Below are positions 9,676 to 47,081 of a DNA stretch of 49,776 bases, piece by piece. The DNA is from Thiohalobacter sp. (GTDB lineage Bacteria > Pseudomonadota > Gammaproteobacteria > DSM-19610). The stretch's first letter is position 1; every line of letters begins with the position of its first letter. The stretch spans positions 1 through 49,776 of the forward strand of contig JALSRI010000146.1 of assembly GCA_026984835.1 (NCBI GenBank). The letters are read 5' to 3'. A model generated the notes under the pieces. The model was not told the DNA's origin and searched no databases. It worked only from the letters and a program-made list of their open reading frames with translations. Both the position numbers and the translations under genes were made by a program.

Positions 9676-9701
9676 CGGACTGTTATATCGGACTGTTATA
9701 T
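9676..9701 (+). repeat. Perfect 13-bp tandem duplication (2 x CGGACTGTTATAT)
   Basis: Two adjacent identical 13-mers, 9676-9688 and 9689-9701, lie 12 bp after the DUF3301 stop and about 50 bp before the next start. They are much more A/T-rich than their surroundings and the second overlaps a TATATA string, so they may be an operator or part of the promoter of the 79-aa gene. Confidence 0.75.
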
Positions 9702-34362: not shown

Positions 34363-35355
34363 GTGGATACCGAAGACAAGGTCGCCTTCCTGCGCCAGAC
34401 CGAGGCCTACCCCGACCGGCCCGCGCAGGTCGAGGTGGTCGAGACCCACATGGCCTGGGTGTTCCTGACCGACCGCCTGGTCTACAAGATGAAGAAACCG
34501 GTGCGGTACGAGTTTCTCGACTTCAGCACCCTGGAACGGCGGCGGCTGGACTGCGAGGCGGAAGTACGCCTCAACCGCCGCCTGGCGCCGGACGTCTACC
34601 TCGGCAGCGTGGCGCTGACCCGCGAGGCCGGCGGCCGGCTGCGACTGGAGGGCGACGGCGAGGTGGTCGAATGGCTGGTCAAGATGGTGCGCCTGCCCTC
34701 CGAGCGCATGCTGGACCGCATGATCGCGGCCGGCGACATCGATACGGACGCGCTGCAGGATGCCGCCGGCGTGCTGGCGAACTTCTATGCGCAGGCGCCG
34801 AGAGAACCCCTGTCACCGGATTTCCACCGGCAACGTTACGCACAGGGCATCGCCGACCATCACCGGCGACTGGCCGCCCACGGCCACGACCCGGCGCTGG
34901 CCGACAGGGTGCGCAAGGGCCTGCTGGCCTTCATCGCCAGGCGCCCGCAACTGCTGGAAGCGCGCGCCCGGGCGGGGCGCATCGTCGAGGCCCACGGCGA
35001 CCTGCGGCCTGAACACCTGTGCCTCATCGAGCCACCGGTCTTCATCGACTGCCTGGAGTTCAACCGCGCCTTCCGGCTGCTGGATCCGGCCGACGAACTC
35101 GCCTTCCTGGCCATGGAATGCGAGTTCGGGGGCGCCGCCCAGGCCGGCGATATCCTGTTCGAAACCTGTACCGCGCGCCTCCGCGACCGACCGGAGCCGG
35201 TGCTGGTGCACTTCTACAAGGCGTTCCGCGCACAACTGCGGGCGGCCCTGTCCATCGCCCATCTGGGCGACCACCCGCGCGGCCCGGAGTCGAAGTGGAT
35301 CGAAAAGACACGGCGCTACCTGCAACTGGCGATCACCCACCTGGAACACCTGTAG
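34363..35355 (+). CDS. APH-fold kinase-like protein (COG2187 type), 330 aa
   Basis: This is an aminoglycoside-phosphotransferase-fold protein. The catalytic loop reads HGDLRPEHLCL (about residue 211) and the following FIDCLEFN holds the metal-binding Asp. The N-terminal lobe has the VYKMKKPVRYEFLDFSTLERR motif. In related two-domain proteins an AAA_33 P-loop kinase domain usually follows; here the protein stops after LEHL, exactly where the REP array begins, and the TAG stop is part of the REP GTAG tetranucleotide (35352-35355). The start is GTG 34363, since no ATG fits. Function unknown; COG2187 proteins are often linked to nucleotide or sugar metabolism. Confidence 0.8.
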   Translation: MDTEDKVAFLRQTEAYPDRPAQVEVVETHMAWVFLTDRLVYKMKKPVRYEFLDFSTLERRRLDCEAEVRLNRRLAPDVYLGSVALTREAGGRLRLEGDGEVVEWLVKMVRLPSERMLDRMIAAGDIDTDALQDAAGVLANFYAQAPREPLSPDFHRQRYAQGIADHHRRLAAHGHDPALADRVRKGLLAFIARRPQLLEARARAGRIVEAHGDLRPEHLCLIEPPVFIDCLEFNRAFRLLDPADELAFLAMECEFGGAAQAGDILFETCTARLRDRPEPVLVHFYKAFRAQLRAALSIAHLGDHPRGPESKWIEKTRRYLQLAITHLEHL

Positions 35356-36036
35356 GAGCGGGCTCGCCCGCGAACCCGGTGCGGCCGGGGCGACGGGTCG
35401 GTGGCCGCCGGGCCCATCGCGGCCGGAGGCCGCTCCTACAGGGCGGTGCTGCGAACAGGGCTGGTCTCCTGTAGGAGCGGGCTTGCCCGCGATCCCGGCG
35501 CAGCCGGGGCGACCGGGCGGGGGCCACCGGACCCATCGCGGCCGGAGGCCGCTCCTACAGGGCGGTGCTGCGAACAGGGCTGGTCTCCTGTAGGAGCGGG
35601 CTTGCCCGCGATCCCGGCGCAGCCGGAGTGACCGGTCGGGGGCCGCCGGACCCATCGCGGCCGGAGGCCGCTCCTACAGGGCGGTGCTGCGAACAGGGAT
35701 GGTCTCCTGTAGGAGCGGGCTTGCCCGCGATCCCGGCGCAGCCGGGGTGACCGGTCGGGGGCCGCCGGAACCATCGCGGCCGGAGGCCGCTCCTACACGG
35801 CGGTACCGCGAACAGGGGTGGTCTCCTGTAGGAGCGGGCTTGCCCGCGATCCCGGCGCAGCCGGGGCGACGGGTCGGGGGCCACCGGACCCATCGCGGCC
35901 GGAGGCCGCTCCTACAGGGCGGTGCTGCGAACACGGGTGGTCTCTTGTAGGAGCGGGCTCGCCCGCGATGCCGGCGCAGCCGGCACCCCGCCCGGGCGGC
36001 CGCCGGCCTTCGCCGCCAGGGCCGCTCCTGCGGGAC
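35352..36036 (+). repeat. Tandem REP array 1: exact 119-bp units (six unit starts, five complete)
   Basis: Unit starts (GTAGGAGCGGGC) are at 35352, 35471, 35590, 35709, 35828 and 35947, every 119 bp. The last unit is degenerate. Each unit has three hairpins: GAGCGGGC-TT-GCCCGC, CCCGGC-GCA-GCCGGG-like, and an inverted REP GCGGCC-GGA-GGCCGC followed by TCCTAC. A linker specific to this locus follows (GGCGGTGCTGCGAACAGG then GGTCTCCT). The array fills the whole gap between two convergent genes. Long ORFs through it, on both strands, are repeat-generated and not genes. Confidence 0.92.
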
Positions 36037-43991: not shown

Positions 43992-44873
43992 TCAGGGCCC
44001 GGGCAGTGTGAAGTTCAGTGACAACTCCTGGCCGCCGCGCATCAGCGTTACGTTGACGTCCTGTCCTTCGCCCAGCGCCCGCATGGCATCGATGCCCCTG
44101 GCGGGGTTGTCTATGGCGATGCCATTGACGCCCGTGACGATATCGCCGGGCCGCAGCCCGAGTTCCTTCAGCACGCCATGCTTCTTGCCTTCCTGCAGGC
44201 GAAAGCCGACGAACTTGCCGTTCTGGCGCGCCGGGGTCGCCCTGACGTAGTTCAGGAACGAATTCGGGTTGCGCTTTATCTCGCTGCGATAGCGCTGCAG
44301 CGCGGCGTTGCGGTCACCCGCCACAGGCCGGCCACGCCGAGCGGGTGCCGCCGACGGCGTGCGGTCCCGCGGCAGCCGCAGCGTCTCGAAGCGTCCGCTG
44401 CGTTCCAGGATGATGCGGTCGGCATAGATCTCCGACAGCTTCGCCCCGCCCGGCAGCGGATCACCGATGGCATAGGACGCTTCCTTGCCGCGCGGGTCGG
44501 CGACGATGGCGCGCGCCAGGACCTTGTCGTCCGACGAGAACACGCCGCGCAGCGTCAGCTTGAGGCGCGTCTCCGGCGCATTGACGGGCGCTTTCTTCAG
44601 CGGCTCGGCGCGACCCGCCACCCCGAACAGGTGCCAGCCGGCGATCTGGCGCGGGTCCAGCAGCGGCTGGCGGCGCGCCACCGGCTGCACCGACGGCCCG
44701 GCCTGCACCGCCGCCCGACGGGCGTCACCGCCCACCAGCGCCCAGGTCAGACCGGCCAGCAGCCAGGCCAGCCACAGCACCAGCAGCAGGTTCACTCCCT
44801 GCACCAGGACACGGCTGCCGCCGCCCGACAGCCACTGCCGCCAGTCGTTATATCGGATCGCGAAACTCACCAT
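43992..44873 (-). CDS. gspC: Type II secretion system protein GspC (with PDZ domain), 293 aa
   Basis: This is the periplasmic linker between secretin and inner-membrane platform. A short cytoplasmic segment, one membrane helix (VLVQGVNLLLVLWLAWLLAGL), a homology-region (LDPRQIAGWHLFGVAG, then TRLKLTLRGVFSSDDKVLARAIVAD) and a C-terminal PDZ-like domain (ELGLRPGDIVTGVNGIAIDNP ... VTLMRGGQELSLNFTL) fit the family. It is the first gene of the unit, reading leftward. gspG-M are not next to gspF. A sigma70-like promoter is seen upstream. Confidence 0.92.
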   Translation of the reverse strand: MVSFAIRYNDWRQWLSGGGSRVLVQGVNLLLVLWLAWLLAGLTWALVGGDARRAAVQAGPSVQPVARRQPLLDPRQIAGWHLFGVAGRAEPLKKAPVNAPETRLKLTLRGVFSSDDKVLARAIVADPRGKEASYAIGDPLPGGAKLSEIYADRIILERSGRFETLRLPRDRTPSAAPARRGRPVAGDRNAALQRYRSEIKRNPNSFLNYVRATPARQNGKFVGFRLQEGKKHGVLKELGLRPGDIVTGVNGIAIDNPARGIDAMRALGEGQDVNVTLMRGGQELSLNFTLPGP

Positions 44874-44971: not shown

Positions 44972-45002
44972 TAATTTCCTGAATTTTCGAGCCATCTGCC
45001 CT

Positions 45003-45557
45003 GTAGGCGCAGGCGTGCCCGCGATCGCGGCGCGGCCGGGATGGCCGTTCGGGGGCCGCCGTGATCGCGGCCAAAGGCCGCTCCTACGGGTGACCCTCCT
45101 CACATCCTCGCGCCGCCCTGTAGGAGCGGGCTTGCCCGCGATCCCGGCGCAGCCGGGATGGCCGTTCGGGGGCCGCCGTGATCGCGGCCAAAGGCCGCTC
45201 CTACGGGTGACCCTCCTCACATCCTCGCGCCGCCCTGTAGGAGCGGGCTTGCCCGCGATCCCGGCGCAGCCGGGATGGCCGTTCGGGGGCCGCCGTGATC
45301 GCGGCCAAAGGCCGCTCCTACAGGTGACCCTCCTCACATCCTCGCGCCGCCCTGTAGGAGCGGGCTTGCCCGCGATCCCCGCGCAGCCGGGACGACCGTC
45401 CGGTGGCCGCCGTGATCGCGGCCAAAGGCCGCTCCTACGGGTGACCCTCCGCACCTCTTCCTGCCACCCTGTAGGAGCGGGCTTGCCCGCGATCCCGGCG
45501 CAGCCGGGACGACCGTCCGGTGGCCGCCGTGATCGCGGCCAAAGCCCGCTCCTGCGT
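45003..45557 (+). repeat. Tandem REP array 2: exact 117-bp units (five unit starts)
   Basis: Unit starts (GTAGG) are at 45003, 45120, 45237, 45354 and 45471, each 117 bp apart. The last unit is incomplete (about 87 bp). The first and last units carry more substitutions. The forward hairpin, the middle CCCGGC-GCA-GCCGGG hairpin and the inverted arm (GCGGCC-AAA-GGCCGC then TCCTAC) are as in array 1, but the linker differs (GGTGACCCTCCTCACATCCT then CGCGCCGCCCT). The array fills the gap between the 3' end of rhlB and the promoter region of gspC. Confidence 0.92.
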
Positions 45558-45565
45558 ACGGGGGC

Positions 45566-46864
45566 TCAGGAGGCGGAGCGGGAGCGGCGGCCGCGACCCT
45601 CACCACGGCGGCCGCCGGATCGACCGCCCCGGCCGCGGCCGGGGCCGTCCCGGCGCGGCTTGCGCTCGCGCCGCACCGGCGGCTTCAGGTCGGTCACCAG
45701 GAGGCTGTCGTCGACCGGTTCGACGGGGACAGCGTGGCCGATATAGGCCTCGATCTCCGGCAGCGAGTAGACGTATTTCTCGCAGGCGAAGCTGATGGCG
45801 TCGCCGTCGGCGCCCAGCCGGGCGGTGCGGCCGATGCGGTGCACGTAGTCCTCGGCATCCTGCGGCAGGTCGTAATTGAAGACGTGGCTGACATCCGGAA
45901 TGTGCAGGCCGCGCGCCGCCACGTCGGTGGCCACCAGCACCGGCAGCTCGCCCTTCTGGAACTTCTCCAGCAGCGACTGGCGCTTCTTCTGCGGCACGTC
46001 ACCGGACAGGATGGCGGCCTTGTAGCCGTTGCCCTCCAGGTAGCCCCAGACGCGCTCGGCGTCGCGCTTGGTGTTGACGAACACGATGCTGCGACGCGGA
46101 TCCGTGTGGCCCAGCAGGCCCAGCAGCAAGGGGATCTTCTCCTCGTTGGCGGTATGGTAGAGCACCTGGCGCACCCGCTCGGCGGTGACCTGCTCGGGCT
46201 CGATCTGGATACTCTCGGGATTGTTCATGTGCTCGTAGGCCAGTTCGTTGACCCGGTGCGACAGGGTGGCGGAGAACAGCAGGCCCTGGCGCTGCTCGGG
46301 TGGCGGGCAGCGGCGCAGCAGGAAGCGGATGTCCTTGATGAAGCCGAGATCGAACATGCGGTCGGCCTCGTCCAGCACCACCACCTGGGCGCGGCGCAGG
46401 TCGAACACGTGCTGCTTGAAATAGTCGATGATGCGGCCCGGCGTGCCGATCAGGATGTCCACCCCCTCGGCAAGCTGCTTGCGCTGCTTGTCGTAGTCGG
46501 TGCCGCCGTAGGCCAGGCCCAGCTTCAGGCCGGTGTGTCTGCCGAGCTTCTCGGCGTCGCGGTGGATCTGGATGGCCAGCTCGCGCGTCGGCGCCAGGAT
46601 CAGCGCCCGCACCTGGTTGGGCTTGCGCGAGGCATCGGCCGGGTGCTTGAGCAGGTGATCGAAGGTCGCAACCAGGAAAGCGGCCGTCTTGCCGGTGCCG
46701 GTCTGCGCCTGGCCGGCCACGTCGCGGCCCTCGAGCGCTACCGGCAGGGTCATGGCCTGGATCGGGGTGCATTTTGAAAAACCTGCCTCTTCAATGCCTT
46801 GCATTATCTCGGCAGGGAGATTAAAGTCACTGAACGCGACGTCTGAAAGATGATCCTTTTGCAT
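45566..46864 (-). CDS. rhlB: DEAD-box RNA helicase RhlB, 432 aa
   Basis: This is an ATP-dependent RNA helicase, in E. coli a partner of RNase E in mRNA decay. The motifs in order are [13 protein letters not shown] (Q motif), [13 protein letters not shown] (I), PTRELAIQI (Ia), [12 protein letters not shown] (II), SATLSHRV (III), [37 protein letters not shown] and [10 protein letters not shown] (VI). A basic, Gly/Arg-rich tail follows ([23 protein letters not shown]). The start was placed at ATG 46864 (MQKDHLSD). It is divergent from trxA, as in enterobacteria, which supports rhlB rather than another DEAD-box gene. Confidence 0.93.
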
Positions 46865-47081
46865 AACGGCACAGCATAACGGAAACCGGCGCCGGTTTGG
46901 ACTTGCAATCTGCATTTATTTCGGATGAAATTGCACAGGCTGTCTGACAAAGGTCCCGGCCGGCGCAGGCTCCACAAGCGCCGCGACTTGTTTCAAGACC
47001 GACACCCCCTTTGATTTTTTCCGTTCGAACTCTGTTTCAACCGAGATTATTGCGTTTGATTCTGCTCAGGAGGCCTTAAGC
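46865..47081. other. Divergent promoter region of rhlB and trxA with 16-bp palindrome
   Basis: It carries a perfect palindrome AAACCGGCGCCGGTTT (46883-46898), 18 bp upstream of the rhlB start, and an A/T-rich segment upstream of trxA (about 47010-47058). The trxA ribosome binding site AGGAGG sits before the GTG at 47082. Promoter hexamers could not be assigned with confidence. Confidence 0.5.

Follow-up and report, generated by a model that had tools for sequence, protein, structure and literature searches.

It is not settled whether the tandem arrays formed by REPINs, a widespread class of mobile non-coding repeats in bacteria, arise by RAYT-driven copying or through ordinary recombination. 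Two such arrays are found in the stretch of DNA analysed here (the window; 49,776 nucleotides of contig JALSRI010000146.1, Thiohalobacter sp., assembly GCA_026984835.1), and they raise the question of whether each had grown in place from a single local REP-linker seed, as the initial annotation proposed, or whether the repeated module also occurs, and was exchanged, at other sites of the genome. Our analysis favours, with a probability of roughly 0.6, the reading that REPIN-linker modules disperse and that whole units are then gained or lost and sequence is exchanged within and between loci.

Organization and genomic context of array 2

Array 2 consisted of five REPINs and four 32-nt linkers (45003-45555, forward strand for all elements), each unit consisting of two REPs in inverted orientation (head and tail), the loop that separates them and a linker. 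The GTAG REP heads were located at 45003, 45120, 45237, 45354 and 45471 with spacings of 117, 117, 117 and 117 bp, and Tandem Repeats Finder placed the array at 44998-45553 with a period of 117, 4.8 copies, 95% matches, 0% indels and a score of 958, which confirms the earlier report of five starts exactly 117 bp apart. REPIN 1 (45003-45087) began with a diverged head REP (GTAGGCGCAGGCG...) and REPIN 5 (45471-45555) ended with a diverged tail REP (...CCCGCTCCTGC), these two being the outermost REPs of the array, and a body variant was common to REPIN 4 (45354-45438) and REPIN 5. The linkers were not uniform, as linkers 1 (45088-45119), 2 (45205-45236) and 3 (45322-45353, with A at its first base) were of the ...TCACATCCTCGCGCC... 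type (sub-type TCACATCC) and linker 4 (45439-45470) belonged to a second sub-type (...GCACCTCTTCCTGCC...; GCACCTCTTCCTGCCACC) that was found elsewhere in the genome and is present in an array on contig C103. Linker 1 and REPIN 2 (45120-45204) were identical to linker 2 and REPIN 3 (45237-45321); a whole unit was duplicated within array 2. Folded as single-stranded DNA, REPIN 2 formed a hairpin of -35.7 kcal/mol (z -6.1), and 0 of 200 shuffles were as stable. Array 2 combines the REPIN trait of two inverted 5'-GTAG REPs foldable into one hairpin with the BIME trait of alternating, regularly spaced REPs in tandem. A CRISPR array was rejected, as the spacers of array 2 are near-identical copies and not unique, and Rfam gave no structured-RNA match in the window at the gathering score.

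Array 1 (35352-36031, forward strand; 35349-35983 with a period of 119 by Tandem Repeats Finder) contained six REPINs with linkers of family A and served as the comparison array. The REP halves of the two arrays had been described as matching, which held for the head REPs and the tail stem but not for the tail loop. The linkers do differ between the arrays as proposed (32 nt in array 2 versus 31 nt in array 1), but the idea of one linker type per array did not survive the second sub-type at linker 4.

Array 2 is extragenic and is situated between the stop of an RhlE-type DEAD-box RNA helicase gene (45566-46915, reverse strand; DEAD and Helicase_C domains), which we take to be rhlE and whose stop codon at 45566 adjoins the array, and the start at 44873 of gspC (type II secretion protein C; 43992-44873, reverse strand), with the array upstream of the gspC start. 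Any influence of array 2 on the expression of gspC or on the 3' ends of rhlE is putative and would be secondary. Relatives of the GspD encoded in the window (n=11) came from Thiogranum, Thiohalobacter and Gammaproteobacteria MAGs with 55-75% identity. In the region C103:1034-1997, a further array with the linker family of array 2 (family B) is likewise close to a stretch 65% DNA-identical to the DEAD-box helicase gene, in a different arrangement. A 330-codon open reading frame (34363-35355) takes its stop codon from the opening REP of array 1 (35352), whose GTAG provides the TAG, and a Pfam search of five reading frames including this one returned no match. A perfect 13-bp repeat in two copies (CGGACTGTTATAT) was also observed at window positions 9676-9701.

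REP population and RAYT of the host genome

The assembly comprises 2.87 Mb in 259 contigs, in which the REP head had 174 + 183 = 357 matches with at most two mismatches compared to 1 + 0 for a reversed-pattern control. This high copy number, like the extragenic position established for array 2, is a trait of the REPIN class. A single RAYT was present in the genome (C233:199-516, reverse strand; PF01797, a Y1 transposase match), scoring 154 bits against NCBIfam NF047646 (REP-associated tyrosine transposase; cut-off 80). The 3' end of this gene bears a REP, and upstream of it three REPINs form an array (period 101 bp) whose linker family recurs on contig C125. A RAYT flanked by the same REPs is the cognate-RAYT trait of REPINs. 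Given the genome-wide REP heads and the RAYT with its 3' REP and upstream array, array 2 is a tandem REPIN array (a BIME or ordered REPIN cluster) with GTAG-type REPs, and as such belongs to a known kind. The RAYT reading frame, too, ends on the TAG of a REP.

Immediately 5' of the head GTAG, 98 of 141 linkers had CT, 38 had TT and 5 had CC, and the tail REP GTAG was immediately preceded by CT in 95 of 141, these being counts without background control in which linkers of one family are non-independent.

In surveys that included the own genome, the REP head (at most one mismatch) was detected in 11 of 39 relative genomes; it occurred in 9 of 20 family genomes, with 341 matches in the own genome and at most 103 in another. 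A sample of 369 genomes from the class Gammaproteobacteria, the own genome among them, contained 12 with at least one REPIN-to-REPIN junction of this REP type. Two other Gammaproteobacteria (G031 and G257) each possessed several arrays with periods of about 73-163 bp and mostly one linker each. Two linkers of G257 were found on two contigs each, and related linkers recurred about 1 kb apart on contig C22 of G031. Also on this contig (G031:C22:136799-137495) is a REPIN array that repeats about every 162 bp and has its own linker. The exact 24-base pattern of linker A had 0 matches in the contigs of other genomes, a set from which the own or a very near genome may have been left out.

Linker families are shared between loci

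At least 43 array pieces, each with at least one REPIN-linker-REPIN junction, and at least 141 linkers with a GGG-type head were parsed from the stretches around arrays among the matches listed (100 of 357 REP places and 100 of 150 linkers) and from one further stretch located with the linker A pattern; C55 was read on both strands and is counted twice in the 141, and contig overlaps duplicate a few more. These fixed-length units, together with the arrays of G031 and G257, agree with the initial proposal of a general amplification acting on inverted REP pairs. The proposed genome-wide period of about 115-120 bp was not borne out, as the main periods were 90-124 bp and varied with the linker, a range that excludes irregular clusters, for example C106 with 62. 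Unit length was constant within an array as predicted, with four spacings of 117 bp in array 2 and 117-118 bp across its linker family. REPIN junctions with gaps of 41-71 nt were sought and none was found to the exact pattern.

Linkers were grouped at 75% identity, a threshold above the maximum of 0.68 reached by shuffled linkers in 2000 trials and loose for linkers of 18-21 nt. With this grouping, the linker family of 34 of the 43 pieces recurred on at least one other piece and that of the remaining 9 did not, some pieces being halves or strain versions of one locus. Family A was represented by 17 pieces that reduced to 12 loci with distinct left flanks after merging by shared flank (C15/C108, C182/C259, C197/C199), by right edge (C36/C180) and by 127-bp overlaps (C138/C239, C8/C9), and 7 of these 12 loci had no intact head at the left edge (by eye), so that their boundaries are ragged. 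Family B occupied three loci (C146, C153 and C103+C243) without common flanks, and 17 of the 18 matches to its linker pattern were in arrays, corresponding to 16 distinct copies as the 127-bp overlap of C103 and C243 double-counts one. The last linker of C153 was identical to the first linker of array 2 and the last linker of array 2 was of the C103 sub-type, which indicates that these arrays share edge variants. Weak pattern matches were also seen for linker B at C249:25371 (1 mismatch) and for linker A at C239:20060 (3 mismatches). A search with 1356 bp of the rhlE-side flank of array 2 for a second-strain version gave no near copy.

The presence of linker A at 12 loci and linker B at 3 means that the private linker per array proposed initially is wrong for both window arrays, and the sharing of linkers between arrays, which the initial annotation had itself set against that proposal, was observed for both. 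A purely local origin, by which a REPIN and its own flanking DNA would have grown by slippage or unequal crossing-over with the linker remaining private, is therefore contradicted for both window arrays and is improbable overall. Such an origin would fit the constant period within array 2, the 9 of 43 pieces whose linker occurs at one piece only (C55 and C205 with a single linker) and genome G031, in which seven multi-unit arrays had seven different linkers (by eye); the private-linker rule is accordingly true of some arrays and of neither window array. It does not fit the 34 pieces in multi-piece families, as grouped with a threshold that is loose for the shortest linkers.

The flanks are also relevant here, since a linker of local origin would be a copy of neighbouring DNA. 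Mean identity of flank to linker was 0.364 for the own array and 0.289 for the linkers of other arrays on the left (n=18), and 0.444 versus 0.319 on the right (n=29), in both cases without a significance test. The linker ran on past the last REPIN at 5 of 29 right ends, which is in line with local growth, and at 1 of 18 left ends, this one being C138, where an inner unit was cut by the contig end; linkers of other arrays continued in the same way at 39 of 812 right and 5 of 306 left ends. The flanks of array 2 showed no linker continuation, and the notion that the linker is a copy of the local flank is weak at best.

Local growth and probable exchange among units

Complete internal units were compared, 40 from family A (16 of 17 pieces) and 13 from family B (3 of 4 pieces), with edge units dropped. 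In family B the nearest neighbour was within the same array for all 13 units (shuffles 4.3, sd 2.0), and identity was 0.946 within and 0.893 between arrays, with 0 of 5000 shuffles showing as large a difference. This grouping by locus argues for local expansion and also counts in favour of a purely local origin. Local expansion thus took place as well, but the single local seed of the initial annotation is not supported, in that the linkers occur at 12 and 3 loci.

Family A gave a different picture. The most similar unit came from the own array in 13 of 38 cases, a minority, but well above chance (3.2 in shuffles, sd 1.9, with 9 as the maximum of 300). Identity was 0.936 within arrays and 0.911 between them, a difference that none of 5000 shuffles reached. 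Mixing of family A is incomplete, and its units group by locus only partly. When variable sites were paired across the 40 units, all four combinations were displayed by 188 of the 231 pairs. Mean r2 was 0.36 for sites 1-2 bp apart, 0.07 for sites 3-7 bp apart and 0.02-0.04 at distances above 8 bp, a decay with distance that 0 of 2000 position shuffles matched. Retaining one array per allele pair (30 units) left all four combinations in 162 of 210 site pairs, with r2 values of 0.34 (1-2 bp), 0.08 (3-7 bp), 0.06 (8-19 bp) and 0.03 (>20 bp). Variable sites in the 119-bp unit are therefore close to linkage equilibrium past about 8-20 bp. The variable sites cluster at few places (linker, loops and heads), and recurrent mutation may thus account for part of this equilibrium.

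Two versions of a locus and the quality of the assembly

Three family A loci each had two versions in the assembly, with 96-99% identity between their flanks, and C36/C180 formed a fourth pair by virtue of a common right edge. The simplest reading of the doubled family A loci is that the MAG contains two strains. Allele status is less sure for C182/C259, which have a common right flank with a different very edge; C36/C180 was recognised by eye and was treated as a pair in the four-pair comparison but not yet in the nearest-neighbour counts. In the allele pairs that were complete at both ends, the edges agreed and the unit number differed, with six versus three linkers in C197/C199 and four versus three in C15/C108. 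These agreeing edges with different unit numbers, together with the four-combination site pairs and the fall of r2, point to exchange among family A units.

For the four allele pairs, mean unit identity was 0.936 within arrays, 0.923 when the two alleles of a pair were compared and 0.911 when different loci were compared, and the value of 0.923 was reached by random array pairings in 399 of 5000 trials. Taken pair by pair, identity to the other version and to other loci was 0.923/0.906, 0.923/0.909, 0.914/0.917 and 0.938/0.921. Similarity of family A arrays at the same locus thus exists but is weak, and it is absent in one of the four pairs.

It is important to consider that a short-read assembly may copy linkers into unrelated contigs or produce false mosaics, and the 259 contigs, many of which end inside arrays, as well as the loci in two versions, which are most simply two strains, could be seen in this light. 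An artefact of this sort is nevertheless very unlikely. At their ends, the contigs of the pairs C8/C9, C138/C239 and C103/C243 have exactly 127 bases in common, a length that suggests that the assembly used a k-mer of 127; this exceeds the unit of 117 or 119 bp, and combinations inside a unit with its linker should therefore be real, with the order of units deep within long arrays being uncertain. C137, C233:13402, C233:29912 and both window arrays are moreover contig-internal with sequence on both sides, and these have no flanks in common except in the overlap of two neighbouring contigs.

A proposed model of module dispersal and unit exchange

Each unit of array 2 comprises two inverted GTAG REPs and a linker, and the linker family occurs at other loci. 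We propose that what moves to new sites is a module with a minimum of two REPINs and the one linker that separates them, and that its most likely carrier is the single RAYT of the genome, which would cut next to GTAG, a role assigned by association. This step is inferred from E. coli TnpA-REP, which is described in passages of PMC8266576 as cleaving at CT dinucleotides beside the REP, and from the CT that precedes most GTAGs here. After arrival, 117-bp units would be gained or lost through recombination or slippage between near-identical units, and gene conversion may further mix units, mainly within the locus in family B and also between loci in family A. Mobility is deduced in this case from one genome of the genus, with no insertion caught in the act, and the ragged boundaries of family A stand against composite transposition, for which clean REP-to-REP ends would be expected.

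Alternatively, the REPIN-linker module may be excised by the RAYT as a circle, copied and inserted as a ready-made array, in keeping with the model of Nunvar et al. 2010 (PMC2817692), which in the passages concerned has a RAYT circularise the basic module and amplify it by rolling circle. This would account for the fixed period, for one linker per array and for the reappearance of a linker elsewhere, and a RAYT is indeed present. Newborn arrays would be expected to consist of identical units, in contrast to the within-array identity of 0.936 in family A, which under rolling-circle copying would mean that the arrays are old or that other exchange dominates, and array edges are ragged. As these ragged edges and imperfect unit identities misfit a fresh rolling-circle product, recombination must at least follow, and we consider rolling-circle insertion of whole arrays rather unlikely in comparison with dispersal of modules followed by gain, loss and exchange of units.

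Comparison with known repeat systems and implications

BIME linkers of E. coli are common to several loci. The arrays described here resemble BIMEs of E. coli (BIME-2) and Xanthomonas in the alternating, regularly spaced REPs in tandem with a variable linker, as far as these are covered in passages of PMC2817692, PMC8266576 and PMC3686654, and differ from them in REP sequence; binding of IHF or DNA gyrase is a trait of the E. coli BIMEs. The ordered REPIN clusters of Pseudomonas fluorescens SBW25 (Bertels and Rainey 2011, PMC3116915) are similar in having near-identical REPINs and flanking sequence in tandem, and passages of that paper give 16 ordered clusters, with three REPIN clusters beside RAYT genes. 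In contrast to SBW25, this genome has one linker family at 12 loci with its unit variants reshuffled; the 43 pieces per 2.87 Mb include halves and strain versions and are not directly comparable to the SBW25 counts. GTAG-tagged REPs are shared with the GTAG-1 families (Di Nocera et al. 2013, PMC3733652), where passages of the paper describe dimer spacers that are in some cases largely conserved family-wide and in others variable, so spacers common to several loci are already in print as such; one-linker tandem arrays at several loci and exchange of units are not treated in those passages, nor is the present organism mentioned in them.

In summary, tandem REPIN clusters, the RAYT rolling-circle model and spacer conservation have all been published, and this genome contributes an array linker that recurs at 12 loci and whose units are mixed to near equilibrium. 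Dispersal cannot be told from local growth where linkers are private, and linkers at 12 and 3 loci, together with doubled loci, provide a natural marker set that separates the two. We raise tentatively, as a possibility rather than an expectation, that the family A arrays behave as almost one mixing population over about a dozen sites with very short exchange tracts, in which an array would be almost as similar to distant arrays as to its same-site counterpart in the other strain. If this is true, REPIN arrays would exemplify concerted evolution between loci in bacteria, and its driver may be single-stranded modules made by the RAYT and not ordinary recombination.
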